Assembly (NCBI RefSeq): GCF_017742835.1
Contig: NZ_CP072392.1
Span: 4,177,695-4,241,694, forward strand
Direction: 5' to 3'
Source of the DNA: Aquabacter sp. L1I39
GTDB lineage: Bacteria; Pseudomonadota; Alphaproteobacteria; Rhizobiales; Xanthobacteraceae
DNA: 64,000 nucleotides
Shown here: one piece after another, positions 40,986 to 56,783 of the stretch
Position numbering within the stretch: the first letter of the stretch is position 1
Layout of the letters: each line of letters begins with the position of its first letter
Position numbers and translations under genes: made by a program
Notes under the pieces: model-generated
The model's input: the letters and a program-made list of their open reading frames with translations, nothing else
Database searches by the model: none
Told to the model about the DNA's origin: nothing

Positions 40986-41059
40986 CGCGTCCCCTTCTCA
41001 CCGTCCGGCGGGCTTCCATTCGAGAAAGGTGCTGCCATTGTTCGGCGAGCCCCAATGGG

Positions 41060-41515
41060 TTAGCGCAGGCGCTCCAGCAGGGCCAGCAATTGCACCCGCT
41101 CGGCGGGCGCGAGGGGGGAGAGCGTCTCCTCCGTGATGGCCAGCGCGTTGGGGGTCGCCCGCGCCACCACTTCTGCCCCCGCGGGCGTCAGAGCCGCCAC
41201 CAGGCGCCGGCCGTCCTCCGGATCGGGCCGCGTTTCCACCAGCCCGCGCTTCACCAGACGATCCACCACGCCCTTGATGGTGGCGGCGTCCATGGCGGTG
41301 AGGCGGCCCAGCAGGTTCTGGGAACTGGGTCCCTTCTCCTGGAGCTTGGCCAGCGCCGCCCATTGGGTGGGGGTGAGGTCCTCGCCGATGCGGCTGCCGA
41401 AAATGGTGGTGTGCCGCTGGGAGACCTGGCGGAGAAGGAAGCCCACCTGGGCATCGAGATGATAGGAGGGCGCGCCTGTGCGTTTACGCCCGGTGGCCTT
41501 TGGCTTGATGCTCAC
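41060..41515 (-). CDS. MarR family regulator, probable NicR/BpsR-like repressor
   Basis: Protein of 151 residues. The winged helix is visible: TPTQWAALAKLQEKGPSSQN, recognition helix region MDAATIKGVVDRLVKRGLVE and the wing RPDPEDGRRLVAALTPAG. GTG 41515 is chosen with GAGG seven bases upstream. It lies at the 3' end of the nicotinate region in the same direction. The known regulators of nicotinate genes, NicR in Pseudomonas and BpsR in Bordetella, are MarR proteins that respond to 6-hydroxynicotinate, so this is the likely local repressor. The link to the shared 16-bp sites is inferred from position, not shown by the sequence. Confidence 0.85.
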   Translation of the reverse strand: MSIKPKATGRKRTGAPSYHLDAQVGFLLRQVSQRHTTIFGSRIGEDLTPTQWAALAKLQEKGPSSQNLLGRLTAMDAATIKGVVDRLVKRGLVETRPDPEDGRRLVAALTPAGAEVVARATPNALAITEETLSPLAPAERVQLLALLERLR

Positions 41516-41713
41516 TCCCCGGCCTCTTTCTCGACACGCTGGCCACGCAGCGCTGTGTCTGCACGCCGAACGGCAGTCCCCCTGAACGTCTGCGCACCGG
41601 GCGGACCGGGCCGTTCTGCGACCCCGGTGCACCCCGCGCCCCTCTGCCCACGCGCCCCTCAGCCGACGCGAACGTCGCAGGAGGGGCAAAGTCCGGCGGG
41701 GCGGCAGGCGCCC

Positions 41714-42418
41714 TCACACCGCAAGATAGGCGTCGCGGATTTCCGGATTGGCCTCCAGGTCCGCCATGGTTCCGGAAAAGCGCATCCGGCCCTTTTCGAT
41801 GATGTAGGCGCGATCCGAAATCAGCTTCGCAAAATGAAGGTTTTGCTCGGAAATCACAACGCTGATGCCGTCGCGCTTCATGGTCAGGATGGCGTCCGCC
41901 ATCTGCTCCACGATCTTAGGGGCAAGTCCCTCCGACGGCTCGTCCAGCAGCACGAGGGACGGATTGCCCATGAGCGTGCGGCCGATGGTGAGCATCTGCT
42001 GCTCGCCCCCGCTCATATGGCCGCCGGGCCGGCGGCGCATTTCGCCGAGATTGGGGAACAGCTTGTAGATGCGCTCGGGCGTCCAGGCGGCAACCCCTGA
42101 GCGGGGCGGCTGGCGGCCCACTTCGAAATTCTCCTCCACCGTCAGCTCGGTGAAGATGCGCCGGTCCTCGGGAACATAGCCCAGCCCCCGGCGGGCGATC
42201 TCATAGGTGGGCAAGCGGGAGATGTCGGCGCCGTCGAAGCGGATCTGGCCCGAGCGGTCGGCGACCAGCCCCACCACCGAGCGGAACGTGGTGCTCTTTC
42301 CCGCGCCGTTGCGGCCGAGCAGCGCCACCACTTCGCCCGCGCCCACCTCGAAGCTCACGTCGAACAGGATATGGGCCGGGCCGTAATGGCTGTTGAGGCC
42401 GGTGACTTCGAGCTTCAT
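41714..42418 (-). CDS. livF: ABC transporter ATP-binding protein, LivF type
   Basis: Protein of 234 residues. Walker A is LLGRNGAGKST, the Q-loop segment is GLGYVPEDRRIFTELTVEEN, the signature is MSGGEQQMLTIGR, Walker B is LVLLDEPSEGLAP. It belongs to the branched-chain / HAAT class. The start overlaps the livG stop (ATGA). It is the last gene of the transporter, which follows the catabolic genes and is probably for nicotinate or a related ring acid; this substrate is inferred from context. Confidence 0.93.
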   Translation of the reverse strand: MKLEVTGLNSHYGPAHILFDVSFEVGAGEVVALLGRNGAGKSTTFRSVVGLVADRSGQIRFDGADISRLPTYEIARRGLGYVPEDRRIFTELTVEENFEVGRQPPRSGVAAWTPERIYKLFPNLGEMRRRPGGHMSGGEQQMLTIGRTLMGNPSLVLLDEPSEGLAPKIVEQMADAILTMKRDGISVVISEQNLHFAKLISDRAYIIEKGRMRFSGTMADLEANPEIRDAYLAV

Positions 42419-43197
42419 GCGGCGCTCCCCTCGCGGTGGCGGGCGTCATAGAGCAGGCCCTCGCCCAGATAGATGGCGCGCACCTGAGGGTCCTGGCGCA
42501 CCTGTGCGGGGGGTCCGGCGGCGATCAATTCGCCCCGGTTCAGCACCATCACCCGGTCCGCATGCTCGAACACCACGTCCATGTCGTGTTCGGTGAAGAG
42601 GACGCCAATGGATTTCTCCCGCGCGATGGCGGCGGTCAGGCGCATGAGGTCCACACGCTCCTTGGGCGCCATGCCGGCGGTGGGCTCGTCCATGAGCAGG
42701 AGGCCAGGATCGTTGGAGAGGGCCACCGCCAGCTCCAGGCGCTTCAGGTCGCCATAGGCCAGTTCCCCGCAGGGCCGGTCCGCCTGGGCCTCCATGCCCA
42801 CCATGGCGAGCAGCCGGTCGGCCTCGGCCCGATGGGCGGCGCCGGCATAGCCGAGCGGCGACCAGGCCCGCTTATGGAAGGACAACAGCGCCACCTGCAC
42901 GTTTTCCCGCACTGTCATGGAGGGGAAGGTGGCGGTGATCTGGAAGGTGCGCCCCACCCCCCGCCGCCACACCGCGCGGGGCGGCAGGCCGACAATGTTC
43001 TCGCCCTTCAGCCGGATGGCGCCCCCATTGGGGCGGATCTGGCCGTTGAGCATGTTGAAGCAGGTGCTCTTGCCGGCGCCGTTGGGGCCGATGAGGGCGA
43101 GGATCTCCCCTGCCTCAAGCCCGAACGAGACGCCCCGCACCGCATGCACCCCGCCATAGGACTTGGCGAGCTTTTCCACTTCCAGCAGACGGGTCAT
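42415..43197 (-). CDS. livG: ABC transporter ATP-binding protein, LivG type
   Basis: Protein of 260 residues. Walker A is IGPNGAGKSTCFNML, the signature region is LAYGDLKRLELAVAL, Walker B is LLLMDEPTAGMAP, and the H-loop is LFTEHDMDVVFEHADR. The ABC signature reads LAYGD-x rather than LSGGQ, as in many LivG proteins. It overlaps the permease stop and the livF start by four bases each. Confidence 0.93.
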   Translation of the reverse strand: MTRLLEVEKLAKSYGGVHAVRGVSFGLEAGEILALIGPNGAGKSTCFNMLNGQIRPNGGAIRLKGENIVGLPPRAVWRRGVGRTFQITATFPSMTVRENVQVALLSFHKRAWSPLGYAGAAHRAEADRLLAMVGMEAQADRPCGELAYGDLKRLELAVALSNDPGLLLMDEPTAGMAPKERVDLMRLTAAIAREKSIGVLFTEHDMDVVFEHADRVMVLNRGELIAAGPPAQVRQDPQVRAIYLGEGLLYDARHREGSAA

Positions 43198-45098
43198 CGG
43201 GCCGCCTCCGCCTTCTGGGCGCCGAGAGGCGCGGTTTCCGTGCCGGTGCCATCCGGCGCCTTGGGCCGCCCGCGATGGCGCAGGTCTTCCAGGAAGCCCA
43301 CAATGCCTTTGGGGAAGGCGACCACCAGGAGCACGATCACGGAGCCCAGCACCAGCTTGGACAATTCCGTCTTGCTGATGAGCCAGATGGACAGCGCCTT
43401 GTAGACGATGGCGCCCACCACGCCGCCGGACACCGTCTCGATGCCGCCCAAGAGCACCATGACAAGGCCGTCCACCGAGATGGGAATGGCCAGATTGTCG
43501 GGGAAGACGGAGCCCTTCAGGAAGGCGAACAGGGCGCCGGCAATGCCTGCGAAGGTGCCAGCCACGATGAAGGCCACCCATTGCGTGCCGTTGCGGTCGA
43601 GCCCCACCGCCTCGGACCGCAGGGCATTGTCGCGGGCGGCGCGCAACGAGAAGCCGAAGGGCGAGAAGACCAGGAGGCGCAGCACGCCCACCCCCAAGCA
43701 CACCACCGCCAGCACCATCCAGAAGAAGGGGGCGGGGCGGGACGCCCAGCCGGCGGGCCAGATGCCGAGCATGCCGTTGTCGCCGCCGGTCACTTCCACC
43801 CACTGGAACGCCACCGACCAGGTGATTTGGGCGAAGGCGAGCGTCAGCATAGCGAAATAGACGCCCGACAGGCGCACGCAGAACCAGCCGAACAGCACCG
43901 CCCCCACAAGCCCCAGGAACGGGCCGACCAGGAGGGCCACCTCCATGGGCGCGCCCGTGAGCTTGACCATGAAAGCGGCGCCATAGGCGCCGAGGCCGAA
44001 ATAGGCCGCATGGCCGAAGGAGGCGAGGCCGCCCACCGTCATCAGGAAGTGGAGGCTGGCGGCGAAGAGCACGAAGATGAGGATCTCCGAGCCTACGGTC
44101 AGCGCGTAATTGCCGAGGAAGAAGGGCAGGCTTGCCGCCACCAGTACCGCCGCGCCCACCGCCAGGCGCTCGGCTTGCGAAAATGGGCGCCAGGGTCGAA
44201 CGGACAGGCCGATGGCCGAGCGCTGCGGGCCTTCCGCCTTGCCGAACAGGCCATAGGGCCGGATCACCAGCACCACCGCCATCACCAGGAAGACCAGCAC
44301 CAGCGAGATCTTCGGGAAAATGAGGATGCCGAAGGCGTTCAGCTCGGAGACCAGCACCGCCGCGATGAAGGCGCCGGTGACCGAGCCGAGGCCGCCGATC
44401 ACCACCACCACGAATACGTCCACGATGATGCGCAGGTCCATGGAATGGCTGACCGCATCGCGCGGGATCTGAAGCGCGCCGCCCAGCGCCGCCAGGAACA
44501 CGCCAAGCGCGAAGACGCTGGTGAACAGCCATTTCTGATTGACGCCCAGCGCCGCCACCATGTCGCGGTCCTGGGTGGCGGCCCGCACCAGCACGCCCCA
44601 GCGGGTGCGGTGGAAGACGATCCACAACAGGCCAAGAACGGCGGGGCCGAGGCCGATGAGCAGGAGGTCATAGGCCGGCACCATCTGGCCCATGATGTCC
44701 ACGGCGCCACGGAAGCCGGGGGCGCGGCGGCCCATGAGGTCCTCGGGACCCCAGATCAGGATCACGATATCCTGCACCATCAGCGTCACGCCGAAGGTGG
44801 CGAGCAATTGGAACAGTTCCGGCGCCCGATAGATGCGGCGCAGGAGCACGATTTCCAGCAGGGCGCCCAGGACCGCAATCACGAAGGCTGCGATCACGAT
44901 GCCGCCCCAGAAGCCCCATGTTCCGGCCAGTTGTTCGGTGAGCGTATAGGCGAGATACGCCCCCAGCATGTAGAAGGCGCCGTGGGCGAAATTCACGATC
45001 CGCGTCACGCCGAAGATGATCGACAGGCCGGAGGCGACCAGGAACAGCGAGGCTGCGCTGGCAAGACCTGTCAGGGCCTGGACGACGATGAAATCCAC
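43194..45098 (-). CDS. Fused branched-chain-type ABC permease (LivH-LivM)
   Basis: Protein of 634 residues. The N-terminal half is LivH-like (SGLSIIFGVTRIVNFAHGAF near 25, LRRIYRAPELFQLLATFGVT near 80, about eight helices to 290). A linker around residues 300-330 leads into a LivM-like half (FLMTVGGLASFGHAAYFGLG, SVFPDNLAIPISVDGL). Two permeases are normally separate genes; here there is no stop or internal start signal between them. GTG 45098 is chosen, with AAAGG upstream. It translocates the substrate delivered by the LivK protein. Confidence 0.9.
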   Translation of the reverse strand: MDFIVVQALTGLASAASLFLVASGLSIIFGVTRIVNFAHGAFYMLGAYLAYTLTEQLAGTWGFWGGIVIAAFVIAVLGALLEIVLLRRIYRAPELFQLLATFGVTLMVQDIVILIWGPEDLMGRRAPGFRGAVDIMGQMVPAYDLLLIGLGPAVLGLLWIVFHRTRWGVLVRAATQDRDMVAALGVNQKWLFTSVFALGVFLAALGGALQIPRDAVSHSMDLRIIVDVFVVVVIGGLGSVTGAFIAAVLVSELNAFGILIFPKISLVLVFLVMAVVLVIRPYGLFGKAEGPQRSAIGLSVRPWRPFSQAERLAVGAAVLVAASLPFFLGNYALTVGSEILIFVLFAASLHFLMTVGGLASFGHAAYFGLGAYGAAFMVKLTGAPMEVALLVGPFLGLVGAVLFGWFCVRLSGVYFAMLTLAFAQITWSVAFQWVEVTGGDNGMLGIWPAGWASRPAPFFWMVLAVVCLGVGVLRLLVFSPFGFSLRAARDNALRSEAVGLDRNGTQWVAFIVAGTFAGIAGALFAFLKGSVFPDNLAIPISVDGLVMVLLGGIETVSGGVVGAIVYKALSIWLISKTELSKLVLGSVIVLLVVAFPKGIVGFLEDLRHRGRPKAPDGTGTETAPLGAQKAEAAR

Positions 45099-45255
45099 GG
45101 CATGGCCTTTCGTTGTGACGATCGGTTCGGGTCGATGGTCCGTCCGGCAAGGGCCGGCGCGCGGGCGCCAAAAGCGGCGGCGGTCAGTGGCGGGGTCTCC
45201 CGCCTTGGAGGCCGCCAGCCACGCCGGCGTGCCAGGGCATTCGTGCAAGGGCTTT

Positions 45256-45280
45256 CGTGCCCGGGTTTGCCCCGGGCACG
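45256..45280. terminator. Hairpin between livK and the fused permease gene
   Basis: A perfect 10-bp GC-rich stem (45256-45265 with 45271-45280) with a five-base loop, inside the 226-base gap. It lacks a following T-run, so it more likely attenuates or protects the livK message, giving higher binding-protein levels than permease, than terminates fully. Confidence 0.6.
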
Positions 45281-45324
45281 GGCATCGGTGCGTCAGACCG
45301 GGCTGGCTGGCCCGGAATGCCCCG

Positions 45325-46521
45325 TCAGTTCTGCGGGCGCAGCTTCTTCACTTCGTCGTCGGAGGGCAAATAGGCGGCACCGTCGCGATAGACGGAATTG
45401 ACCATCACGCCCTTGCCGTCCTTCACCGCCGTCTTGCCCACGAAGGCGCCGAGCGTCGACTGGTGGTCGATGCCGCGGAAGACGATGGGGCCGAAGGGGG
45501 TGTCCAGCGACAGGCCCTCGGCGGCGGCAATCATCTTGTCGGTGTCGGTGGAGCCGGCCTTGGTGATGATGGCGGCGGCCGCCTTCATGGTCAGGTAGCC
45601 GACGATGGAGCCGAGCCGGGGATAGTCGTTGAACTTGGCCTGATAGGCCTTCAGGAAGGCGTCATGGGCCGGGGTCTTCAGGTCGTACCAAGGATAGCCG
45701 GTGACGATCCAGCCTTCGGGAGTCTCCTCCTTCAGCGGGTCCAGATATTCCGGCTCGCCGGTGAGCAGGCTGACCACCGTGCGGTCCTTGAACAGGCCGC
45801 GCGTATTGCCCTCGCGCACCAGCTTCACGAGGTCGGGGCCGAAGGTGACGTTGAAGATGGCATCGGGCTTGGCCGCCGCCACCGCCTGCACCACCGCGCC
45901 GGCGTCGATCTTGCCCTGCGGGGGCCACTGCTCGCTCACCCACTCGATGTCCGGGCGCTTGGCGGAGAGCAACTGCTTGAACACCGCCACGGCCGACTGG
46001 CCATACTCATAATTGGGCGCGATGGTGGCCCAGCGCTTGGCGGGCAGCTTGGCCGCCTCTTCCGCCAGCATGGCCGCCTGCATGTAGTTGGAGGGCCGCA
46101 GGCGGAAGGTGTATTTGTTGCCCTTCGCCCAGGTCATGGCGTCGGTGAGCGGCTCGGCCGCCAGGAACAGGATCTTCTTCTGGGCCGCATAGTCGGCTAC
46201 GGCCAGGCCGATATGGGAGAAGAAGGTGCCGGTGAGCATCACCACATTGTCGCTGGAGACCAGCTCGTTCGCTGCGGTGACCGCATCGGCAGGCTTGCCG
46301 CCATCATCCTTCGAGATGACCGTGAACTTCTTGCCCAGCACGCCGCCGGAGGCATTGATTTCCTCCACCGCCAGCTGCCAGCCCTTGCGATAGGGCTCGG
46401 TGAAGGCGGGCAGGCCGGAATAGGAGTTGATCTCCCCGACCTTGATCTCCTGCGCCGCCGCCCGGCCGAGGCCGGCCGCAAGCGCAAGGGCCGCCAGTGC
46501 TACTGAAATCGACTTCTTCAT
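45325..46521 (-). CDS. ABC transporter substrate-binding protein, LivK type
   Basis: Periplasmic receptor of 398 residues with a signal peptide (KKSISVALAALALAAGLGRAAAQ). The mature part has the Peripla_BP_6 pattern: IKVGEINSYSGLPAFTEPYR, the segment GWQLAVEEINASGGVLGKK, and the LSLDTPFGPIVFRGIDHQST segment near the end. It is distinct from strict leucine-binding proteins; related receptors in this family bind aromatic and other organic acids. Given its place after two DUF1185 genes and hnr, nicotinate or 6-hydroxynicotinate is a plausible ligand. Confidence 0.9.
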   Translation of the reverse strand: MKKSISVALAALALAAGLGRAAAQEIKVGEINSYSGLPAFTEPYRKGWQLAVEEINASGGVLGKKFTVISKDDGGKPADAVTAANELVSSDNVVMLTGTFFSHIGLAVADYAAQKKILFLAAEPLTDAMTWAKGNKYTFRLRPSNYMQAAMLAEEAAKLPAKRWATIAPNYEYGQSAVAVFKQLLSAKRPDIEWVSEQWPPQGKIDAGAVVQAVAAAKPDAIFNVTFGPDLVKLVREGNTRGLFKDRTVVSLLTGEPEYLDPLKEETPEGWIVTGYPWYDLKTPAHDAFLKAYQAKFNDYPRLGSIVGYLTMKAAAAIITKAGSTDTDKMIAAAEGLSLDTPFGPIVFRGIDHQSTLGAFVGKTAVKDGKGVMVNSVYRDGAAYLPSDDEVKKLRPQN

Positions 46522-46584
46522 GCGATCGTCCCCTCTGGTTATTCGACGTACCGCCGCTACCTTGGCGCCGAACCCGGCACCACT

Positions 46585-47169
46585 TTAACGCAACCCGTCC
46601 TCTCCTTTGATGTCTTCCGCCTTCAATCCCCCAATCCGGGGGAAGGGGCGGCCGGACGTGGTCACGGCGACCGCCACCACGATCTCGTTGGCGCGCGGCG
46701 CATCGGGCACGGTGACCTGCATGCCGTCGAAATGGCTGCGCACATAGGCTGCGTCCTTGTGGCCGAGCGGGATGTCCAGCTCGGCACCGAGCCCGCCCCG
46801 GCGCTTGGAGGAGGGGATCAAAGCCGCCCCCTTGCCCAGCACCTGACGCACCGGCGTGCCCATCTTGGGATGGAGCAGCGCGGCGGCATGCTCCAGTTCG
46901 CCATTCTCGCCCACCAGGGCCGCCTTGCCGTAGGATTGGGCGTCGGGGCCGGAAATGCCCAGCGCCGCCACGGCTTTTTCAGCCAGCAGCCCGCCCAGTT
47001 CCTCGCCGATCGCGATGAGGGGGGAGAGGTCTTCCTCATAGCGGCCGGCAAAGGGGTTCTCGATCACCGCCACCGCCGCCGCCCGCTTGGCGGGCTGGGG
47101 CACGGGGCGGCCCATCTCGGTGAGGGTCTCTTCCACCACCACCAGGATCTTGCGGATCTTCGCGCTCAT
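46585..47169 (-). CDS. DUF1185 (amino acid synthesis family) protein, copy 2
   Basis: Protein of 194 residues of the PF06684 family. Hallmarks are IRKILVVVEETLTEMG, VIENPFAGRYEEDLSPLIAIG, SYGKAALVGENGELEHAAAL, and the tail VVAVAVTTSGRPFPRIGG ending KGEDGLR. It is clearly a paralogue of the next gene. The name 'amino acid synthesis' is a historical guess; no activity is established. Its ATG overlaps the stop of copy 1 (ATGA), so the two are probably made together, perhaps as a hetero-oligomer. A metabolic step in nicotinate breakdown is possible. Confidence 0.85.
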   Translation of the reverse strand: MSAKIRKILVVVEETLTEMGRPVPQPAKRAAAVAVIENPFAGRYEEDLSPLIAIGEELGGLLAEKAVAALGISGPDAQSYGKAALVGENGELEHAAALLHPKMGTPVRQVLGKGAALIPSSKRRGGLGAELDIPLGHKDAAYVRSHFDGMQVTVPDAPRANEIVVAVAVTTSGRPFPRIGGLKAEDIKGEDGLR

Positions 47170-47750
47170 CGCAGGCCGTCCTCCCCCTTGATCTTGTCGG
47201 CGGCGAGACCCCCGACGCGGGCATGGACGCGGGGACCGCAGGTCATCACCAGGACAAGCACGATCTCGTCCGCCTTGGGGCCATCCGGCACGCCCACTTC
47301 CATGGCGTCGAAATGACTGCGCACATAGGAGGCGTTCACATGGGTCACGGGGATGTCGAGCCGGGTGCCCGGGCCGCCCACCTTCTTGGTGGAGGGCACG
47401 ATGGCCTTGGCATCCCCCAGGATCTCGCGCATGGCATAGCCGCCGGGCACGTGCCACAGCGCCCCATGCTCCAGTTCGCCGGCGGCGCCGATGATGGCGC
47501 CCTTGCCGTAGCCGTCCACCGCCGTCTTGTCGCCGCCCAGGGCCTTCAGGAGGTCGCCGGCCATGGCGATGCCCAGCGGAGTGAGGTCATCCATGAAGCC
47601 GGCAATGTCTTCCACATAGCGGCCGGCAAAGGGATTCTCGATCACGGTCAGGATGGCGCCGCGCTTGCGCGGCACGGCGGCCACCGGCCCGCCTTCGTGC
47701 AGGATTTCCTCCAGGATGAGCAGGCGCTTGCGGATCTTCACGTCAGGCAT
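47166..47750 (-). CDS. DUF1185 (amino acid synthesis family) protein, copy 1
   Basis: Protein of 194 residues, paralogue of the downstream gene: IRKRLLILEEILHEGG, VIENPFAGRYVEDIAGFMDD, GYGKGAIIGAAGELEHGAL, THVNASYVRSHFDAMEV, and the same KGEDGLR ending. It overlaps the UPF0280 gene upstream by eight bases and copy 2 downstream by four, so it is deep within one operon. Function is unknown; its position after hnr and before the transporter suggests a role in the pathway or in handling an intermediate. Confidence 0.85.
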   Translation of the reverse strand: MPDVKIRKRLLILEEILHEGGPVAAVPRKRGAILTVIENPFAGRYVEDIAGFMDDLTPLGIAMAGDLLKALGGDKTAVDGYGKGAIIGAAGELEHGALWHVPGGYAMREILGDAKAIVPSTKKVGGPGTRLDIPVTHVNASYVRSHFDAMEVGVPDGPKADEIVLVLVMTCGPRVHARVGGLAADKIKGEDGLR

Positions 47751-48690
47751 GGGACGGCCCTTGTTGTTGGCTGTGCGCGAGGGAATGGCCGGCCAGGGCC
47801 GGGAGAGGGGCGTTCAAATTCAGCTGCGGGCCGGTGCTCGCGGTCTCCCCCTGGAGGTGGAGCGCGGCAGCCTGGATGAGGCCCCGGCGGACGAGATCCT
47901 GCGCGCGGGCAAGACCCGCCTCCAGCGCGCGGGCGCGTTCGGCAGAGGAAAGCTCCGGCACGGCGCGCGTGACGAGGCGGTCGCCCAAGTCGTTGTCGGG
48001 CTGGAGGTGAGACGCGGGCACCCGCAGGATGCCCGGATGGCCCGGCAGGTCCACCGCATTGGCGATGATGGTGGCCGCCGCATCGGCCCTTGAGGCGGTC
48101 GCGGCCAGCACCGTCACCGCATCGGCGATGCCCAGCGAGAAGCTGCGTCCCCGCCAGCCGCTGGTGGCGACGCCCCGCACGGGGTCCCGCGCGTCAAGCA
48201 CAGCGGTGCCCACGATGCGCGGCCGGTCTGGCCGGTCCACGAGGCCGACGGTGAAGGTCGCGCCCGCCTCCAAATGGAGGGCGATGTCGCCGCCATTGTT
48301 CACATAGGCGCGGGTCAGGCCCGACCGCACCAGGGCGGACAGCACCTCTTGTGCCACGGCGCCGGCCACTGCCGCCATGGGGGTGATGAAGTGCGCGCCG
48401 GCAAAGGGCCGCACCGCCTCCCACATGCGCCGGGCGATCGCGCCTTGAAGGGGCGAGGCCTCCGGCGCGGCGGGCGCCCGCAGGGCCGGGAGTTCGGCGC
48501 ACAATTCATCCAGCAGGCCGGCAAAGCGGGCGGCCGCCGCCGCATAGGCCCCGTCCACCACGCCGGTCGGCCCGTCCGCCTCGATCACCAAATCGATGGG
48601 GCCGTCCTGCAGATGCAGGCGCCGCCCATCGGCGAGCCGCGCCACCTGGGGCGCGCGCAGAGCGGGGGGGAGGGGGCGGGCGAGGGCCAT
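47743..48690 (-). CDS. UPF0280 / ApbE-superfamily protein next to Hnr
   Basis: Protein of 315 residues. The ApbE-like core is visible: VAGAVAQEVLSALVR, RAYVNNGGDIALHLEAG, GVATSGWRGRSFSLGIAD and SRADAAATIIANAV. ApbE proteins attach FMN to threonine of target enzymes; UPF0280 members are related but uncharacterised, and the classical ApbE histidine motif is not seen. ATG 48690 lies four bases after the hnr stop, so the two are tightly coupled. The E. barkeri reductase homologue carries covalent flavin, so a flavinylation role is a reasonable guess. Confidence 0.82.
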   Translation of the reverse strand: MALARPLPPALRAPQVARLADGRRLHLQDGPIDLVIEADGPTGVVDGAYAAAAARFAGLLDELCAELPALRAPAAPEASPLQGAIARRMWEAVRPFAGAHFITPMAAVAGAVAQEVLSALVRSGLTRAYVNNGGDIALHLEAGATFTVGLVDRPDRPRIVGTAVLDARDPVRGVATSGWRGRSFSLGIADAVTVLAATASRADAAATIIANAVDLPGHPGILRVPASHLQPDNDLGDRLVTRAVPELSSAERARALEAGLARAQDLVRRGLIQAAALHLQGETASTGPQLNLNAPLPALAGHSLAHSQQQGPSHA

Positions 48691-48694
48691 GGCG

Positions 48695-50188
48695 TCACCC
48701 GTGGGAGCGCTTGGCGCCTTCGGGCGCCAAAGGCCAGGGATTGTCGAGGAGCGGCGCCAGCGGCAGCAGGCCCTCATGGCCGCGCACGCTTTCCACCGGG
48801 CGCACCTCCGCCATATGGCCGCCGAGGGCCTCATAGTCGGAGAGCTTCAGGGTGAATTCGATGGGCGCCACCAGAGCCGGGGTCGGCACATAGCCGAAGG
48901 CGTTTTCCGGCAGGCGCGTCACGTCCACCATGAAGGTGATGCCGCCGCCGGGATAGACATAGACCGGCGCGCCGCCGCTGGTGACATAGGTCAGCGCATC
49001 CTTCACCGACTTGGTGAGGCGCACCGGGTTTTCCGTGACACCGGCCCGCAAGGAACCGCCCGCCCCCGCCATGAACAGCACGGTGGACAGAGCCGGCTCG
49101 CAATTTTCCTTCACCCGCTCGGCGGAGGCGGCCAGATCCGGCGGCAGCGGCTTCTCCACCGGCACCAGGGCCTCGTCCAGCTCGAAATAGGCGCTGTGCT
49201 CGCCGGTGGTGGAGATGAAGAAGAGGCGCAGGCCCGGCCAGGCCACCTTGGGGTCGAACGGGCCGATAATGGCGAGGGGATCGGTGAGGTTGGTGCCGCC
49301 CCAGCCGGTGCCGGGCTCGGCCACCTGGAAATAGCGGCCGGGGGTGGAGCGGCGGCCCTTCATCTTGATGCCGGTGTCGGGAATGTCCAGCAGCTTGCCC
49401 GCCTGGTGCTCGGAGAGGACGCCGGTGATGTGGTCGTCCACCACCACCACCTCATCCACCTTGCCGAGCCATTGCTTGGCGAACATGCCGATGGTGGCCG
49501 AGCCGCAGCCCACCCGCATGCGCTCTTCCACCACCCCATTGACGATGGGCGGTTTACCGGCCTGCACCACCACGGTGGCGCCGCCATCGATGCTGAGTTC
49601 CACCGCCTTGCCGTTGCACAGCTCCACCAGGGCGTCGCAGGTCACGCGGCCTTCCTTCTTGCCGCCGCCGGTGAGGTGATGGACACCGCCCAGCGAGAGC
49701 ATCTGGGAGCCGTATTCGCTGGTGGTCACATGGCCCACCGCCTCGCCCTGGGCGCGCACCGTGGCCTGCTCGGGGCCGAGATAGCGGTCGGTGTCGATTT
49801 TCACCTTCACGCCGCAATAGCTGAAGATGCCCTCGGTGACGACGGTCACCATGTCCACCCCCTCCACCTGGGAGGAGACGATGAAGGGCGCGGGCTTGTA
49901 GTCGGGATAGGTGGTGCCGGCGCCGATGGCGGTGACGAAGGTCTCGGGGCTGGAGAGGATCTTGCCGTCCCAGTCTTCGCCCCGGCTGAACGGCACCACC
50001 GTGCCGCCCTGGGCGAGGGTGCGATCCAGCACCACGTGGGGATCGACGCGCACCAGCTCGCCCGCATGGTTGGCATAGCGATCGCAGGCGCCCGTCATGC
50101 CCGGCTTGATGTAGCACATGACCGGGCACGCATCGCAGCGGATCTTGGCGTCCGCCGGGCTTGGTGCGGGGGCTGTGTCGTCGCGCAT
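48695..50188 (-). CDS. hnr: 6-hydroxynicotinate reductase-like iron-sulfur flavoprotein
   Basis: Protein of 497 residues resembling proteins annotated as 6-hydroxynicotinate reductase, which reduce 6-hydroxynicotinate to 1,4,5,6-tetrahydro-6-oxonicotinate. N-terminal cysteines Cys18, Cys21, Cys25 and Cys35 (CDACPVMCYIKPGMTGAC) form an iron-sulfur site. A run DGGAT at 201-205 is a possible flavin attachment point. The C-terminal half has GYVPTPALVAPIEFTLKLSD. Length and neighbours (enamidase upstream, UPF0280 four bases downstream) support the assignment, made from memory of the family. It has its own promoter with the shared motif. Confidence 0.85.
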   Translation of the reverse strand: MRDDTAPAPSPADAKIRCDACPVMCYIKPGMTGACDRYANHAGELVRVDPHVVLDRTLAQGGTVVPFSRGEDWDGKILSSPETFVTAIGAGTTYPDYKPAPFIVSSQVEGVDMVTVVTEGIFSYCGVKVKIDTDRYLGPEQATVRAQGEAVGHVTTSEYGSQMLSLGGVHHLTGGGKKEGRVTCDALVELCNGKAVELSIDGGATVVVQAGKPPIVNGVVEERMRVGCGSATIGMFAKQWLGKVDEVVVVDDHITGVLSEHQAGKLLDIPDTGIKMKGRRSTPGRYFQVAEPGTGWGGTNLTDPLAIIGPFDPKVAWPGLRLFFISTTGEHSAYFELDEALVPVEKPLPPDLAASAERVKENCEPALSTVLFMAGAGGSLRAGVTENPVRLTKSVKDALTYVTSGGAPVYVYPGGGITFMVDVTRLPENAFGYVPTPALVAPIEFTLKLSDYEALGGHMAEVRPVESVRGHEGLLPLAPLLDNPWPLAPEGAKRSHG

Positions 50189-50239
50189 GGCGGGGCTCCG
50201 GGCATGAAGCTGGCGCAGGCGGGCCTGCGGCTCAGTTCA

Positions 50240-50279: not shown

Positions 50280-50367
50280 GCACAAGGAAGAGGCATGCTG
50301 CTATACAGGGCGCTCATCTTGCCGGCAGCGGGCGGAACCGGTCCGCCCGCGCCCGGTGCAGATGCCG

Positions 50368-51567
50368 TCAGGCCTTCACGAGGAAGGGCACGCGGGTCGC
50401 CGGCGGCGTGTTGCGCGAGCGTTCCGTGCGCACGATGCCGTCGATGATGGTCATGCCGATGCCTGGCAGGTCGCCCAGCTGGATGCTCTCCAGCAGGTTG
50501 GTGCCGGCCGAATGCTGGGCCGTGTCCATGATGACGAAGTCGGCCGAGCGGCCCACTTCGATGATGCCGCAATCCAGCGCCCGCATGCGCGCGGTGTTGC
50601 CGGTGGCAAGGCACAGGGCCTGTTCCGCCGGCAGGTCGCCCAGCGAGGAGAGGAGCGAGACCATGCGCAGGATGCCCAGCGGCTGCACGCCGGAGCCGGC
50701 GGGCGCGTCGGTGCCGAGGATCACCCGGTGGAGGTCGCCCATCTCCCGCGCGATGCGCAGGGTATAGAGCGCGGCGCGCTCATTGCCGTTATGCACCAGT
50801 TCCAGGCCGCGCTTGCAGCCCTCGCAGATGCAGCGGATCTGGCCGTCGGGGAGCGCCGTGTGGCCGCCATTGATATGGCCCACCACGTCCGTGTCCGCCT
50901 CCAGCACCACGTCCTTGTCGATGAGGCCGGAGCCGGGAATGGAGGGGCCGCCCGTATGAATGGTGGACTGGATGCCGTATTTGCGGGCCCATCCCACCAT
51001 CTTGCGGGCGGTGGGGCCGTCCTTGACGCCGCCGAGGCCCACTTCGCCAAGCAGCTTCACGCCGGCCGCGGCCAGTTCCTTGAAGTCTTCCTCCACCATC
51101 TCATGCTCGATGACGGGGGCGCCCGCATGGATCTTCACGCCGCCGGGCCGGAAGGCGGTGAAGGTGCGCTGGGCGGTAATGGCCAGGGCCTTCACGCCGA
51201 TCACGTCACGCGGACGGCCGGGATAATGCACCTCGCCCGCCGAGATCATGGTGGTGACGCCGCCATGGAGGAAGCTGTCGATCCAGTTGAGCTGCTGCTG
51301 GCGGGGCGTCCAGTCCCCCGCCACCGGATGCACATGGCTGTCGATGAGGCCGGGGGTCACCGCCGCCCCGTTGGCATCTACCGTGGTGGTGGCGCCCTCG
51401 GTGTCCACGTCCTTCAAGCGCCCGATGGCGGTGATGCGGCCATTCTCGGCGACGATGGTGTCGGCATCGAGGATCGGCTTTTCCAGATCGCCGGACAGCA
51501 GAAGGCCGATATTGCGGATGACGAGCTTGGTGGGGCCGGTGGGACCGCCCGGGGCATCATGGGCCAT
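50368..51567 (-). CDS. ena: Enamidase-like amidohydrolase
   Basis: Metal-dependent amidohydrolase of 399 residues resembling the E. barkeri enamidase, which opens 1,4,5,6-tetrahydro-6-oxonicotinate to 2-formylglutarate and ammonia. Metal-site residues are visible: His78 and His80 (LIDSHVHP), Glu175 (LLGEVGLGG, possible bridging ligand), His204 (STIHTGG), His231 (GHINGGHTALP) and Asp287 (GTDAPAG). ATG 51567 follows AGGA. It lies between hnr and fnr, with its own promoter and operator motif. Dihydroorotase-type cyclic amidase is the main alternative. Confidence 0.85.
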   Translation of the reverse strand: MAHDAPGGPTGPTKLVIRNIGLLLSGDLEKPILDADTIVAENGRITAIGRLKDVDTEGATTTVDANGAAVTPGLIDSHVHPVAGDWTPRQQQLNWIDSFLHGGVTTMISAGEVHYPGRPRDVIGVKALAITAQRTFTAFRPGGVKIHAGAPVIEHEMVEEDFKELAAAGVKLLGEVGLGGVKDGPTARKMVGWARKYGIQSTIHTGGPSIPGSGLIDKDVVLEADTDVVGHINGGHTALPDGQIRCICEGCKRGLELVHNGNERAALYTLRIAREMGDLHRVILGTDAPAGSGVQPLGILRMVSLLSSLGDLPAEQALCLATGNTARMRALDCGIIEVGRSADFVIMDTAQHSAGTNLLESIQLGDLPGIGMTIIDGIVRTERSRNTPPATRVPFLVKA

Positions 51568-51594
51568 ATTCGGGTTCCTGGAAGGCTTGTTTTA

Positions 51595-51628
51595 TTTGTA
51601 AGCATACGAATGTTACGCCCGGTCCCAA
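51595..51628 (-). promoter_or_regulatory. ena promoter with shared 16-bp operator motif
   Basis: The motif TTTGTA-AGCA-TACGAA at 51595-51610 is the most palindromic copy: the arms match at five of six positions. On the minus strand -35 TTGGGA (51623-51628) and -10 TATGCT (51601-51606) are 16 bases apart, so the motif covers the -10 box, 28 bases before ATG 51567. Confidence 0.75.
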
Positions 51629-51668
51629 GACTTGGAAAGCAGCCTTTGGAACCGGGCTGGACAAAAAT

Positions 51669-52442
51669 TCAGCGCTCGGCGAAGGCCTTTTCCAGCACGA
51701 AGTCGCCGGCTTCCCCGTTGCTGCCTTCCTCGAAGCCGCGCGCCTCCATCATGTGACGCAGCTGCACCATCATTTCCGGCGAACCGCACAGCATGACCCG
51801 GTCGGTCGCCTTGTCCAGCATGGGCAGGCCCACATCCTCGAACAGCTTGCCGCTCTCAATCAGATCGGTGATGCGGCCGCGATTGCGGAAGGGCTCGCGG
51901 GTGACGGTGGGGTAATAGATGAGCTTGGCGGAGACTTCCTCGCCGAGCAGCTCGTGCGAGGTCAGGCCGCTGACGATCTCCTCCCCATAGGCCAGCTCCG
52001 CCACCTCCCGGCAGCCATGCACCAGCACGATCTTCTCGAAGCGCTCATAGGTCTCGGGATCGCGGATAAGGGCCAGGAAGGGCGCAAGGCCGGTGCCGGT
52101 GCCCAACAGATAGAGCGTGCGGCCGGGCTTGAGATTGTCCAGCACCAGCGTGCCGGTGGCTTTCCGCCCGATGATGATGGGATCGCCCTCCATTACATGC
52201 TGGAGGCGGGAGGTCAGGGGGCCGTCGGGGACCTTGATGGAGAAGAATTCCAGCGTGTCCTCGTAATTGGGGCTGACCACCGAATAGGCGCGCAGCAGCG
52301 GCCGGCCATCGACCTTCAGGCCGATCATGGTGAACTCGCCATTGCGGAAGCGGAAGCTGGGGTCCCGCGTGGTGGTGAAGCTGAACAGGCGGTCGGTCCA
52401 GTGGCGCACGCTCAGGACGCGCTCTTCCATCAGGTTGCTCAT
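51669..52442 (-). CDS. Ferredoxin--NADP reductase
   Basis: FAD enzyme of 257 residues. FAD binding is seen in LLRAYSVVSPNYEDTLEFFSI, NADP binding in LYLLGTGTGLAPFLALIRDP, with LMLCGSPEMM-like residues VMLCGSPEMMVQLR near the end and a C-terminal VLEKAFAER tail, of bacterial subclass I type. E. barkeri Hnr takes electrons from reduced ferredoxin, so a dedicated reductase here would feed Hnr from NADPH. It has its own promoter carrying the shared operator motif. No ferredoxin gene is present in the cluster. Confidence 0.92.
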   Translation of the reverse strand: MSNLMEERVLSVRHWTDRLFSFTTTRDPSFRFRNGEFTMIGLKVDGRPLLRAYSVVSPNYEDTLEFFSIKVPDGPLTSRLQHVMEGDPIIIGRKATGTLVLDNLKPGRTLYLLGTGTGLAPFLALIRDPETYERFEKIVLVHGCREVAELAYGEEIVSGLTSHELLGEEVSAKLIYYPTVTREPFRNRGRITDLIESGKLFEDVGLPMLDKATDRVMLCGSPEMMVQLRHMMEARGFEEGSNGEAGDFVLEKAFAER

Positions 52443-52490
52443 GGGGCTTCCGGGCAGGTTCGGGGCCGTGGCGGCGGGGGTGAAAATTTG

Positions 52491-52530
52491 TTTGTGTACT
52501 AATGAAAATGGATGCGCGCGGCCTTGTCAA
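52491..52530 (-). promoter_or_regulatory. fnr promoter with shared 16-bp operator motif
   Basis: On the minus strand -35 TTGACA (52525-52530) and -10 TTTCAT (52502-52507) are 17 bases apart, the same arrangement as at hnr. The motif TTTGTG-TACT-AATGAA at 52491-52506 overlaps the -10 box, 49 bases before the ATG. Confidence 0.8.
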
Positions 52531-52584
52531 TTGCCTTGCCGGCCAAAGGCGGGGGCTGACCCTGGGTTTTTTGCGATGCGGGTC

Positions 52585-55500
52585 TCACTGGGCCGCCTTC
52601 ATGGCCCGCACTTCCCCCACCCGTGCCTCCAGGCCTTCCCAGGCGGGCGCCTCGGGGGCGAAGGTGGCGCGGATATAGCGGGCGAGCGCCGCCACCTGGG
52701 TGTCGTCCAGCGCGTCGCGGAAGGCGGGCATGTCGCCCAGATCCCGGGCGGCGGGGGAGGGGATGCCGTCGAGGATCACCCGGATGAGATTGTCCGGCCG
52801 GGCGGCATGCACATTGGTGTTGAGCGCGAGTGCCGGGCGTACGCCGAACAAGGTCGGCCCTTCCTGCGCATGGCAGGCGGCGCAGGCGCCCTCATAGAGC
52901 TTGCCGCCCAGCGTATCGAGGGGGCGAAGACGGGCCTGCGCCTGCGCTTCCAGCTCCGCCGCCCGCGCCGCCGGCTCGGCCACCGGCGGACTGGAGAATG
53001 AGGAAAGATAGGTGGCCATGGCGCGGATATCGGCGTCGGGAAGACCAGCCAGTTCCTGCACCACCGGCGCCATGGGGCCGGCCGCCGTGCCGTGGAAGCG
53101 GGAAAAGCCCGTGCGCAGATAGGAGAAGAGCTCGTCCTCGGTCCAGGGAATGGGCGCGGCGGACAGGCTTGTGAGAGCGGGGGCCTCCCACCCATCCGCC
53201 CAGCCGCCGGACAGGTGCGCGGGGCCCGTCTTCTCGGCGCCGAGCGCATTGCGCGGCGTGTGGCAGGCGCCGCAATGGCCGAGGCCCTCCACCAGATAGC
53301 GCCCGCGATTCCATTGCGGTGGTTGGGCAGGATCGGCCTCCAACTGGCCGGGCTTCAGGAACAGCGCGTTCCATCCGGCCATGAGGGGGCGGATGTTGAG
53401 CGGCGCGGCCATGCGCGCTTCGGGCGTGGCCGCACTCACCGCCGGCTGCGACATGAAATAGGCGTAGAGGGCCTGGAGGTCCGTGTCCGAGGTCTTGGTG
53501 AAGGAGGGGTAGGGGAAGGCGGGGTAGAGATGCCGCCCATCCCGCGAGATCCCCTCCCGCATGGCGCGCTCGAAGGCGGCATAGGACCAGCGGCCGAGGC
53601 CCGTCTCCGGGTCAGGCGTGAGATTGGTGGAATAGACGGTGCCGAATGGCGTCTCCAGCGCCCGCCCGCCGGCATTCGCCACCCCGCCCGGCACGGTGTG
53701 GCACACGGCGCAGGCGCCCACCGCCGCAAGCTGCCGGCCGCGCGCGATCATGTCGGCGGAAAAGGAGGCCGGATCGGGCGGCGCGATGGGGGGAACCGCG
53801 CCGCGCAGGGGCATGGCGATGGCGGCCATGCCGAGCGCGCCCGCGAGCGTCGCGCCGGCCAGCGTGAACCAGTTGCGCTTGGTCTTTTCCGGCCGGGTGG
53901 CCTTGGGGCGCGCCTCGCCCGCAAGCGCGGCGCGCACCTTATCGGGCGTGAAGGGCGGCTCGCGCAGGCGCACGCCCGTGGCGTCGAAAATGGCGTTGGC
54001 GATGGCGGCGGCTGAAGGCACCGAGGCGGATTCGCCACTCCCCAAGGGCGGGTCGTCCGGCCGGGGCATCAGCACCACATTGATGACCGGCACCTCGGGG
54101 AAGGTGAGGATGGGATAGGCGCCCCATTCCCGGCTGGTCACCGCCGTCTCGCCGAAGCCCACCTCTTCCTTCAGCGCCCGGCTTGTGGACTGGATGACAT
54201 TGCCGTGGATCTGGTGCTCGATGCCCGCCGGGTTGATCATCAGCCCGGAATCCTGGCCCACCGTCACCTTGCGCACGGCCACGTCGCCGGTGGTGGTGTT
54301 CACCTCCACATCAGCCACCCAGGCGGACCAGGCGGCGCCATAGCCGGGAAACTTGGAATGCACATAGAGCGCATAGGCAAAGCCCTGCCCGCGCACGATG
54401 TCACCTTCCACGCTCTCGCGCCGCGGCCCGGTGCGATGGACCCAGCCGGCGCGGTCCGCCACTTCCTTCACCAGGTCGACGGCGCGCGGGTCGTGCAGGT
54501 GGCGCAGGCGATAGTCCACCGGGTCGACGCCGGCCTCGGCGGCCAGTTCGTCGATATAGCTTTCATGGGCGAAGGAATTGGGGAGGGCCGACACACCCCG
54601 CAGCCAGGCCGCCCGAACGATGGGCGCCATGTCATGGGCCACCACGCGCATATGGTCGTAGTCATAGGGCGGGATGGCGGTGCGGTCGCCCATCTCGAAG
54701 ACGGGATTTTTCGCGGGGACACGACCGGTGAGCAGGAGCGCCAAAGTGACAGCCGCGTTGGAGGGGTAGCGGGTGGAAAAGTCATAGGCGGCGGGTGTGC
54801 CGTCGGCATTCAGCCCGCCGCTCACCTCCATGAGCTGGGCCGCGCCCTTGGGCTCCCAGGCATGTTCCTGCTCGCGGGTGAGCTGCACCCGCACCGGGCG
54901 TCCCACGGCCCGCGAAAGAAGCGCCGCATCGGCCGCCACGTCATCCGCGCAATTGCGCCCGTAGCAGCCGGCGGCCTCGAAGCGGATGATGTCGATATGG
55001 GTTTCCGGCAGTCCCAGAAGCACCGCGATGTCGGCCCTCAGCGGATAGGGGTTCTGCGTGCCCGCCCAGATGGTCGCGCCGTCCGCGCCCACGTCCGCCA
55101 CGGCGCAGGACGGGCCGATGGAGGCATGCATCTGGTAGGGCCAAGCATAGGTCCGGTCCATGGGGTGGGCGGCGGCGGCGCGGGCCGTGTCCACATCGCC
55201 CCGGTCGAGGAGCAGGCGGGGTGTGCTGGGATTGGCGCGCAGGGCCTGCGCCACGTCGGAGAGATCCGGCAAGGGCGGTGTGGGCTTCCATTGCACCACC
55301 AGCTCGCGCGCGGCTTGGGCGGCCTGCTCTTCCCGCTCGGCCACCACGCCGATGAAGTCGCCCATGGTGACCACAGCCACCACGCCTGGAATATGGGCGA
55401 TGGAGGCTTCGTCCACCTTCAGGAGGCTGGTACCGATGAAGTCGCCCGCATCGATGCCGGCATAAGGCGGGCGCACCACGCGGCCATGGAGCATGCCGGG

Positions 55501-56136
55501 CACCCGCACGTCATGCACATAGGTGAATTGGCCGAGCGCCTTGGCGGGAATGTCCACGCGCGGCACGCGCTGGCCGATGACGCGATGCTCCGACACAGGC
55601 TTCAGCGCCACCGCGTCCGCCAGCATCAGCCGCTCGGTGCGGCCTGAAAGGAGAGCGGCGTAGGAAAGGCCTGCGTTTCCGCCCGCCTTGGGATGGACCA
55701 CGCCCTCGGTGACGGTGAGGTCTTCCGGCGCCACGTCCAGCGCCTGCGCGGCCAGCGCCACCAGATGATGGCGCGCCTGCGCCGCCGCCCGCCGCAGCGG
55801 GGTCGCCGAGACCTGGATGGTGTCGCTGGCAATGGTCGCGCCCTGGTTGGGCGTGCCGCCAGTGTGGCCGAGCACCATGGTGACGCGCTCCAGCGGCACG
55901 TCCAGTTCTTCGGCCACCATTTGGGCGAGCGCGGTGCGGATGCCGGTCCCGAGGTCCACATGGCCGTTGAAGGCGAGGATGCGGCCGGTCTCGTCGAGAA
56001 AGAGGAACAGGTCCAGCGCCCCCTCGGCGGGCGCCGCCGTGCGCACCAGCCCGCCCACCACCTGCGCCGGACGCAGCACGGCGAGGGTGCTGGCGCGCGC
56101 GAGCAGGGCCTTGGGATCGGCGAGAGGCTCGCTCAT
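52585..56136 (-). CDS. nicB: Nicotinate dehydrogenase large subunit: molybdenum domain fused to three cytochrome c domains
   Basis: Protein of 1183 residues converting nicotinate to 6-hydroxynicotinate with NicA, passing electrons to the cytochrome chain. Residues 1-745 are a xanthine-dehydrogenase-type molybdopterin domain with the conserved Glu702 in GSGESASVPSAAAIANAIF. One membrane helix follows (about 755-777), then three c-type heme sites: CAVCH at 809-813, CGACH at 955-959 and CAACH at 1085-1089. This matches the layout of Pseudomonas NicB. The start ATG 56136 overlaps the nicA stop by four bases (ATGA). The alternative is an isoquinoline/aldehyde oxidoreductase, but neighbours favour nicotinate. 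Confidence 0.9.
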   Translation of the reverse strand: MSEPLADPKALLARASTLAVLRPAQVVGGLVRTAAPAEGALDLFLFLDETGRILAFNGHVDLGTGIRTALAQMVAEELDVPLERVTMVLGHTGGTPNQGATIASDTIQVSATPLRRAAAQARHHLVALAAQALDVAPEDLTVTEGVVHPKAGGNAGLSYAALLSGRTERLMLADAVALKPVSEHRVIGQRVPRVDIPAKALGQFTYVHDVRVPGMLHGRVVRPPYAGIDAGDFIGTSLLKVDEASIAHIPGVVAVVTMGDFIGVVAEREEQAAQAARELVVQWKPTPPLPDLSDVAQALRANPSTPRLLLDRGDVDTARAAAAHPMDRTYAWPYQMHASIGPSCAVADVGADGATIWAGTQNPYPLRADIAVLLGLPETHIDIIRFEAAGCYGRNCADDVAADAALLSRAVGRPVRVQLTREQEHAWEPKGAAQLMEVSGGLNADGTPAAYDFSTRYPSNAAVTLALLLTGRVPAKNPVFEMGDRTAIPPYDYDHMRVVAHDMAPIVRAAWLRGVSALPNSFAHESYIDELAAEAGVDPVDYRLRHLHDPRAVDLVKEVADRAGWVHRTGPRRESVEGDIVRGQGFAYALYVHSKFPGYGAAWSAWVADVEVNTTTGDVAVRKVTVGQDSGLMINPAGIEHQIHGNVIQSTSRALKEEVGFGETAVTSREWGAYPILTFPEVPVINVVLMPRPDDPPLGSGESASVPSAAAIANAIFDATGVRLREPPFTPDKVRAALAGEARPKATRPEKTKRNWFTLAGATLAGALGMAAIAMPLRGAVPPIAPPDPASFSADMIARGRQLAAVGACAVCHTVPGGVANAGGRALETPFGTVYSTNLTPDPETGLGRWSYAAFERAMREGISRDGRHLYPAFPYPSFTKTSDTDLQALYAYFMSQPAVSAATPEARMAAPLNIRPLMAGWNALFLKPGQLEADPAQPPQWNRGRYLVEGLGHCGACHTPRNALGAEKTGPAHLSGGWADGWEAPALTSLSAAPIPWTEDELFSYLRTGFSRFHGTAAGPMAPVVQELAGLPDADIRAMATYLSSFSSPPVAEPAARAAELEAQAQARLRPLDTLGGKLYEGACAACHAQEGPTLFGVRPALALNTNVHAARPDNLIRVILDGIPSPAARDLGDMPAFRDALDDTQVAALARYIRATFAPEAPAWEGLEARVGEVRAMKAAQ

Positions 56137-56618
56137 GGCGTGGCCTCGCCGTGCGCGAGGGCTTCCGCCGCCAGGAGCACCGCTTTCAGGATCTCCACAT
56201 GGGTGCCGCACCGGCACAGATTGTGCCGCAGTGCCGCGCGCGCCTGTGCCTCCGTGGGATGGGGCGTGCGCTTGAGAAAGGCCACCGTGGCCATGATCAT
56301 GCCATTGAGGCAATAGCCGCACTGGGCCGCCTGCGCGGCGATGAAGGCCGCCTGGACGGGATGGGGCGCCTCAGGCGTGCCGAGGCCCTCCAGGGTGACG
56401 ATCTGACGGCCTTCCGCACTGGCCAGGCGGGTGACGCAGGCGCGGGTGGCGATGCCATCCATCAGCACCGTGCAGGCCCCGCACTCGCCGAGGCCGCAGC
56501 CGAATTTCGGACCGTTGAGGGCGAGGTCGTTGCGCAGCACATAGAGAAGGGGCGTGTCGCCGGGCAAGGCGAAGGCGTGCGCGATGCCGTTGACCGTCAG
56601 CGTCACGGTCGCGGGCAT
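56133..56618 (-). CDS. nicA: Nicotinate dehydrogenase small [2Fe-2S] subunit
   Basis: Protein of 161 residues with two [2Fe-2S] clusters that carries electrons from the molybdenum centre to the NicB hemes. The plant-ferredoxin-type cysteines are in KFGCGLGECGACTVLMDG and the second cluster is in QAAQCGYCLNGMIM and HNLCRCGTHVEI. ATG 56618 is chosen, with GGAG eight bases upstream; GTG 56657 in frame is less likely. It heads the nicAB operon, 137 bases downstream of a promoter with the shared operator motif. Confidence 0.93.
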   Translation of the reverse strand: MPATVTLTVNGIAHAFALPGDTPLLYVLRNDLALNGPKFGCGLGECGACTVLMDGIATRACVTRLASAEGRQIVTLEGLGTPEAPHPVQAAFIAAQAAQCGYCLNGMIMATVAFLKRTPHPTEAQARAALRHNLCRCGTHVEILKAVLLAAEALAHGEATP

Positions 56619-56754
56619 GTCCCGGCTCCGAACGCGGCACAAAACTGCGAATGCCACGCACGCACATGCGCAGCCCCGTCCCGATGAAAAGACATACTCC
56701 GCCCCTCTGGTTTTCGGCGGCTCGGGAAGTCGCGAAATGCTTCCCGTGATTTAG

Positions 56755-56783
56755 ATTGTTTCTATACGAACGATTCTTGTCAA
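56755..56783 (-). promoter_or_regulatory. nicAB promoter with shared 16-bp operator motif
   Basis: On the minus strand -35 TTGACA (56778-56783) and -10 AACAAT (56755-56760) are 17 bases apart. The motif ATTGTT-TCTA-TACGAA at 56755-56770 covers the -10 box and most of the spacer. The site is farther from its ATG (137 bases) than in the other three copies, implying a longer leader. Confidence 0.75.

Follow-up and report, generated by a model that had tools for sequence, protein, structure and literature searches.

Gene content and proposed pathway

The window analysed here is a stretch of 64,000 nucleotides from Aquabacter sp. L1I39 (contig NZ_CP072392.1, positions 4,177,695 to 4,241,694), and window positions below are counted from its first letter. 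On its minus strand, running from 56657 down to 41060, lie nicA, nicB, fnr, ena, hnr, a UPF0280 gene, two AA_synth genes, the genes for a substrate-binding protein, a fused permease and two ATPases of an ATP-binding cassette (ABC) transporter, and a MarR gene. The original prediction had placed at 41060-56783, on one strand, nicA, a nicB with three c-type hemes, a ferredoxin-NADP reductase gene, an enamidase-like gene and a gene resembling that of 6-hydroxynicotinate reductase (Hnr), with MarR and ABC transporter genes at one end. All of these are present and the gene cluster is confirmed; the MarR, ATPase and substrate-binding proteins were recognised through Pfam, and the permease by reading of the frame and by matches at 55 of the 80 related loci described below. 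The UPF0280 gene and the two AA_synth genes had been left unnamed. Gene content, enamidase homology, the pairing of Hnr with UPF0280 and the ApbE fold of the UPF0280 model come from the present analysis, the route and the occurrence of the cluster in relatives from the literature; on this basis the run is very probably an operon-like gene set by which nicotinate is catabolised aerobically along the Azorhizobium route.

The nicA open reading frame (56133..56657, with a likely ATG start at 56618) matches small-subunit models of the XDH family and has eight cysteines between residues 54 and 150; it encodes the 2x[2Fe-2S] subunit of nicotinate hydroxylase. Its stop is overlapped by the start of nicB (52585..56136), the gene of the molybdopterin subunit, in which a Mo-binding part is fused to a triheme c-type cytochrome with CxxCH sites at residues 809, 955 and 1085. 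Names vary among the 120 NicB matches listed, some being "nicotinate dehydrogenase subunit B" (e.g. Azorhizobium sp. AG788, 83%) and others general molybdopterin names, and the relative in Azorhizobium caulinodans ORS 571 (83%) is named as a pyrroloquinoline quinone aldehyde dehydrogenase. The ferredoxin-NADP reductase-like protein (FNR; 51669..52442) matches NF008178 at 162 bits, under the curated cut-off of 390; two other places in the genome resemble its gene at the DNA level (75% and 70%), which makes it look like a duplicated ferredoxin reductase, and it may be linked to Hnr as an electron supply. The enamidase (Ena; 50368..51567) aligns over residues 13-393 with 2VUN, the enamidase of Eubacterium barkeri. 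A better fit of Ena to some other family, which the original prediction had named as counting against it, was not found: 2VUN scores 378 bits and the runner-up among PDB chains 32. The HxH motif, two later histidines and the Asp of GTDAP are all aligned with 2VUN, and we take these residues to be ligands.

The 497-residue product of 48695..50188 is assigned as a probable Hnr by the names of its relatives. Those of its relatives that bear names are called "6-hydroxynicotinate reductase" or "hypothetical protein" among the 120 matches listed, the nearest named ones there being from Aquabacter cavernae (90%), Azorhizobium oxalatiphilum (89%) and Xanthobacter sp. AM11 (88%). Searches with Hnr found nothing in Pfam at E 0.001, in the PDB at E 1 or in PADLOC; at a lax threshold, the window protein and three relatives reach 15.8-20 bits with GCV_T_C (cut-off 25.9). 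Cysteines 18, 21, 25, 35, 125, 184, 228 and 363 are conserved; Cys125 is missing from one of the 42 aligned rows, and the other seven are present in all of them. Next to hnr come the UPF0280 (COG2122) gene (47743..48690), AA_synth 1 (47166..47750; PF06684/DUF1185, 232 bits; 3BYQ, 194 bits) and AA_synth 2 (46585..47169; the same family, 246 bits). They are followed by the substrate-binding protein, which probably serves nicotinate uptake (45325..46521; PF13458, 250 bits), a permease with two permease parts in one frame, hydrophobic in sequence and of uncertain true start (43194..45248), ATPase 1 (42415..43197; PF00005, 109 bits, with PF12399) and ATPase 2 (41714..42418; PF00005, 111 bits).

The BpsR-like MarR regulator (41060..41515) is closest to 2NNN (142 bits) and then to BpsR (6PCP, 88 bits). 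Of the four residues with which BpsR binds 6-hydroxynicotinate (Tyr15, His23, Arg26 and His32), the window protein keeps three and has Phe in place of His23, and to judge by this likeness the regulator probably senses 6-hydroxynicotinate. The starts and stops of nicA and nicB, and those from hnr through AA_synth 2, overlap or almost touch, which fits a single transcript. A promoter-like site upstream of nicA (56755..56783, minus strand, TTGACA-17-AACAAT) is not above chance; the scan of 41000-57000 gave 2 promoter sites where 1.5 were expected, and 7 terminators where 6.7 were expected. No RNA element reached the gathering level in 38-60 kb, and with a GC fraction of 0.63-0.70 across 36-62 kb there is no sign of a foreign insert.

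Such a cluster was described by Shettigar et al., 2012 (PMC3511419), both in A. caulinodans ORS571 and in Bradyrhizobiaceae; they report that in A. caulinodans and its relatives it holds an Hnr homologue with 42% identity to that of E. barkeri, and that the route passes through tetrahydro-6-oxonicotinate (THON) and glutarate. PMC9304392 agrees on the ring steps. The pathway that had been predicted, an oxygen-linked hydroxylase joined to a reductive ring opening via THON, is thus supported, and for A. caulinodans it is already published. By this route the ABC system would import nicotinate, and NicAB would hydroxylate it to 6-hydroxynicotinate, the electrons presumably passing through the three c-hemes to the respiratory chain. 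Hnr would reduce the ring to 1,4,5,6-tetrahydro-6-oxonicotinate with electrons that may travel from NADPH through the FNR-like protein to ferredoxin, and Ena would open that ring hydrolytically, with release of ammonia, to give 2-formylglutarate, from which further genes would lead to glutarate and acetyl-CoA. UPF0280 would be a dedicated partner of Hnr, most likely making or loading its redox cofactor, and the AA_synth pair would probably act on the ring-opened aldehyde or enamine. According to PMC3357923, A. caulinodans with an insertion in nicotinate dehydrogenase uses nicotinate solely for NAD synthesis, and in microaerobic culture of the wild type nicotinate catabolism was not measurable, as would be expected from an oxygen-linked entry.

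Like the window, the A. caulinodans ORS571 cluster AZC_2804-AZC_2790 is described as holding genes for the first three steps, a putative nicotinate ABC transporter and conserved proteins of unknown function; the two lie in separate genomes, their NicB proteins are 83% identical, and they were compared by gene content. With the fermentation cluster of E. barkeri the window shares an enamidase orthologue and an Hnr-type reductase, but the nicotinate hydroxylase there has its Mo-binding part in two peptides and carries Se, whereas the window has NicAB with hemes, and beyond the shared genes no E. barkeri fermentation genes were recognised among the window genes of 41-57 kb. The nic cluster of Pseudomonas putida has the same NicAB-type architecture for its entry hydroxylase. 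It differs in what follows: in keeping with the original prediction, none of the window genes scanned at 41-57 kb proved to be NicC- or NicX-like (no genome-wide search for NicC was made), and the ring would be reduced instead. A PF02073 protein is encoded elsewhere in the genome (C1:4392925); this family, taken to hold aminopeptidases, also matches Bacillus subtilis and other controls.

Spread of Hnr and its entry hydroxylases

Counting the genome that holds the window, 21 of 299 Pseudomonadota genomes have Hnr, and by genus 9 of 154 do, so the 21 genomes are not independent. One of 199 Acidobacteriota genomes has a full match, and one further genome has a 37-residue match at 21 bits. The surroundings of Hnr were compared at 80 named loci (L031-L110), the best 80 of 591 relatives, which by title are nearly all from alpha-proteobacteria or Acidobacteria and which end 10 kb to each side or at contig ends. 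By tblastn, UPF0280 was detected at 78 of these, each AA_synth protein at 72, NicB-like proteins at 72 and NicA-like ones at 69, with lower counts for MarR (55), the transporter parts (54-55), Ena (46) and FNR (35). The gene arrangement around Hnr exceeds chance.

The entry enzyme is not the same throughout. A NicAB-type hydroxylase, called where the best NicB piece is at least 55% identical, is present at 45 loci, with 42 of the 45 extending into the cytochrome part; a gene for a flavin adenine dinucleotide (FAD) subunit of the same superfamily is present instead at 23 (e.g. L032, L073, L076, L080 and L081), both at none, and neither at 12, several of which are short contigs. An Hnr tree was built from 55 proteins, the window's and those of the 54 loci with a complete frame, and 47 of them carry an entry label; all six of its Acidobacteria are among the FAD-subunit loci. 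Four changes of label are needed on this tree, at least three of them forced by well-supported branches, which makes the reductive core the steadier unit, with the hydroxylase in front of it having changed. Other neighbours of Hnr include an NAPRTase-like cluster of proteins at 12 loci, judged from sequence, and an isochorismatase-family, nicotinamidase-like cluster at 5 acidobacterial loci, of which one representative was scanned.

Hnr is also carried on plasmids, in 26 of 72,556 records, 12 of them from Sulfitobacter. On CP099606, a plasmid of a betaproteobacterial Comamonadaceae host, the annotation gives within 25 kb fnr, an amidohydrolase gene at the position of ena, hnr, UPF0280, two AA_synth genes and the transporter, and also a [2Fe-2S] protein gene and one for a molybdopterin oxidoreductase, together with a TetR gene. 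On a plasmid of Fuscovulum, hnr and UPF0280 occur with a single AA_synth gene and a transporter.

UPF0280 and its pairing with Hnr

The UPF0280 model NF003322 is matched above its cut-off in all 21 of the Pseudomonadota genomes that have Hnr and in 0 of the 278 others, where the single match of any kind (G293) lies at 22 bits against a cut-off of 290. In 21 of 21 the two genes are adjacent, on the same strand and less than 500 bases apart, and the concordance rules out UPF0280 as a chance neighbour. At 76 of the 80 named loci UPF0280 comes after Hnr on one strand with it; the two are no more than 400 bases apart in 71 of these, and in the other 5 the ends of the matches overlap by 57-63 bases. 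It is distant at two loci, by 1.5 kb (L101) and 8.2 kb (L083), and it is not in the stretches of the last two, L077 and L098, whose genomes each proved to have it elsewhere when viewed whole. No link between UPF0280 and Hnr was found in the open-licence literature searched. That UPF0280 matures Hnr is the best new lead to come from the locus, its chemistry being unproven.

In a predicted model the window's UPF0280 has the ApbE fold. By one account, to which we give tentative credence at somewhat less than even weight, it would supply Hnr with its flavin, by attachment or insertion, in the way that ApbE serves other flavoproteins. Several observations stand against this: the score with PF02424 (ApbE), at 20.7 bits, is under the cut-off of 25.6; ApbE flavin transfer needs a histidine, and no histidine of UPF0280 is conserved at 90% or more of 38 relatives; and a GGAT stretch of Hnr that resembles the ApbE target is not conserved, so that it is ruled out as a target motif. 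As to ApbE itself, PF02424 has no match at E 0.001 in this genome, compared with 7 of 14 control genomes that have one, and the UPF0280 of the cluster is the one ApbE-fold protein recognised here.

A different chemistry is suggested by a second partner of the family. PMC5764234 reports that DUF39 and COG2122 are both required for homocysteine synthesis in Desulfovibrio vulgaris, and PMC12068725 calls the Methanosarcina orthologue, MA1715, a sulfur trafficking protein for L-ASST; in Methanosarcina the family is involved in the use of sulfide. Among the 199 Acidobacteriota genomes there are 9 UPF0280 matches: one, above the cut-off, is in the Hnr genome, seven clear ones below it (62-86 bits) fall in exactly the seven genomes that have DUF39, and the weakest (G322, 24.5 bits) is in a genome with neither Hnr nor DUF39. 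Of the 14 control genomes, those of Methanocaldococcus jannaschii and Methanosarcina acetivorans match both UPF0280 and DUF39, and that of Synechococcus elongatus matches DUF39 alone; DUF39 can therefore occur where no UPF0280 is recognised. The system of the window differs from that of homocysteine synthesis in having Hnr as the partner, and its UPF0280 is above the NF003322 cut-off while the DUF39-linked ones of Acidobacteriota are below it.

Handling of sulfur during Hnr maturation, as proposed for MA1715 with its DUF39 enzyme, would accord with this literature, with the coincidence of the seven DUF39 genomes and the seven clear sub-cut-off matches (the eighth clear match being in the Hnr genome), and with the conserved cysteines of Hnr, which are of the iron-sulfur (Fe-S) type. 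We nevertheless consider it unlikely. UPF0280 has no cysteine conserved at 90% or more of the 38 relatives, which rules out a sulfur-carrier cysteine within it and makes a persulfide on a cysteine of its own improbable; the DUF39 of S. elongatus may manage without UPF0280, unless its UPF0280 escapes the model; and the substrate of Hnr needs no sulfur chemistry.

Returning to maturation of Hnr by UPF0280, a broader form of the proposal sees UPF0280/COG2122 as a family of ApbE-fold maturation factors that serve just two enzymes: DUF39, which takes part in homocysteine synthesis, and Hnr, which acts in nicotinate breakdown. DUF39 and Hnr would in that case both bear a feature made by UPF0280/COG2122. 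We put this forward as a conjecture with the balance somewhat against it; it is weakened by S. elongatus, with its DUF39 and no UPF0280 match. Homology between Hnr and DUF39 was considered and rejected, hhalign giving a score of 18.1 (P 0.25) and the reversed control 17.7. The sole stretch paired by the profile comparison, Hnr VTVVTEGIFSYC with DUF39 VDVVTTGTFGAMC, is not significant and serves as a lead only; it holds Cys125 of Hnr and the cysteine of DUF39 in VVTTGTFGAMC, which, judged by position, appears to be the essential Cys54 of L-ASST. No solved DUF39 domain was found, the PDB matches of the DUF39 profile that were listed (60 of 144) falling in the C-terminal ferredoxin part.

AA_synth genes, the nicotinate assignment and flanking DNA

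An AA_synth gene lies directly downstream of UPF0280 at 71 of 78 loci, three of the seven exceptions having 30 bases or fewer left, and PF06684 occurs in 20 of the 21 Hnr genomes against 21 of the 278 others in Pseudomonadota. Both counts favour a part for the family in the pathway, and it is possible, if doubtful, that the pair supplies a step still missing from it, in which the ring-opened product is decarboxylated or deaminated. The neighbourhoods of AA_synth away from Hnr point the same way: when 20 such regions were clustered, aldehyde dehydrogenase was found in 15, a merged group of alpha/beta hydrolase and flavin reductase in 13 and a luciferase-type monooxygenase in 10, and the layout with aldehyde dehydrogenase and monooxygenase presumably resembles that of the Rut pyrimidine operon. 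Against such a role, one Hnr genome (G139) is without PF06684, two copies are present, by a position rule, at only 29 of the 78 loci, no reported activity was found for the family, and the enamidase of E. barkeri is described in PMC9304392 as bifunctional, so that a separate deaminase would be unneeded. That AA_synth acts on the ring-opened product is offered as a guess.

In a recurrent, Rut-like arrangement (L163, L165-L170, L172, L174 and L175), AA_synth stands in a run with genes for a luciferase-type monooxygenase and an aldehyde dehydrogenase, mostly with alpha/beta hydrolase or flavin reductase genes as well. The Aquabacter genome has a third AA_synth gene, within C1:3963700-3978200, beside genes for an ABC transporter, an alpha/beta hydrolase and an aldehyde dehydrogenase; this region is probably another catabolic operon.

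Some points weigh against the assignment of the window cluster to the Azorhizobium route. Hnr has eight conserved cysteines, seemingly not enough to hold the one [2Fe-2S] and two [4Fe-4S] clusters ascribed to the E. barkeri enzyme. The putative orthology of the window's Hnr to that enzyme is indirect, through named relatives (up to 90%) and the published 42% link for a relative. FNR is present at just 33 of the 46 loci that show Ena; of the other 13, some have Ena at the end of the stretch and some had room. The Fuscovulum plasmid has no annotated enamidase or FNR in the 25 kb shown, and none of the genes recognised belongs to the step that follows formylglutarate, no search aimed at such genes having been made. 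Degradation of another N-heterocycle, such as a substituted pyridine, is conceivable insofar as the substrate is deduced from homology, but it is very improbable given the close relation to the A. caulinodans cluster, the nicotinate-metabolism neighbours at other loci and the BpsR-like regulator.

Beyond the cluster, a CHAD-domain protein (PF05235; 56838-57866) adjoins nicA on the same strand and is apparently unrelated to it. A long open reading frame at 58009-60348 on the plus strand resembles, from its sequence, a TonB-dependent siderophore receptor, and a tRNA-Gly (CCC) lies at 24614-24688 on the minus strand.

That an aerobic entry can be joined to a reductive ring opening was known already, and the novel part of the present findings is the link to UPF0280. 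Through it a family of unknown function gains a second partner, this one a catabolic enzyme from aerobes for which growth on nicotinate provides a phenotype, and if the link between UPF0280 and Hnr is true, the function of UPF0280 would become directly testable in ordinary laboratory strains.

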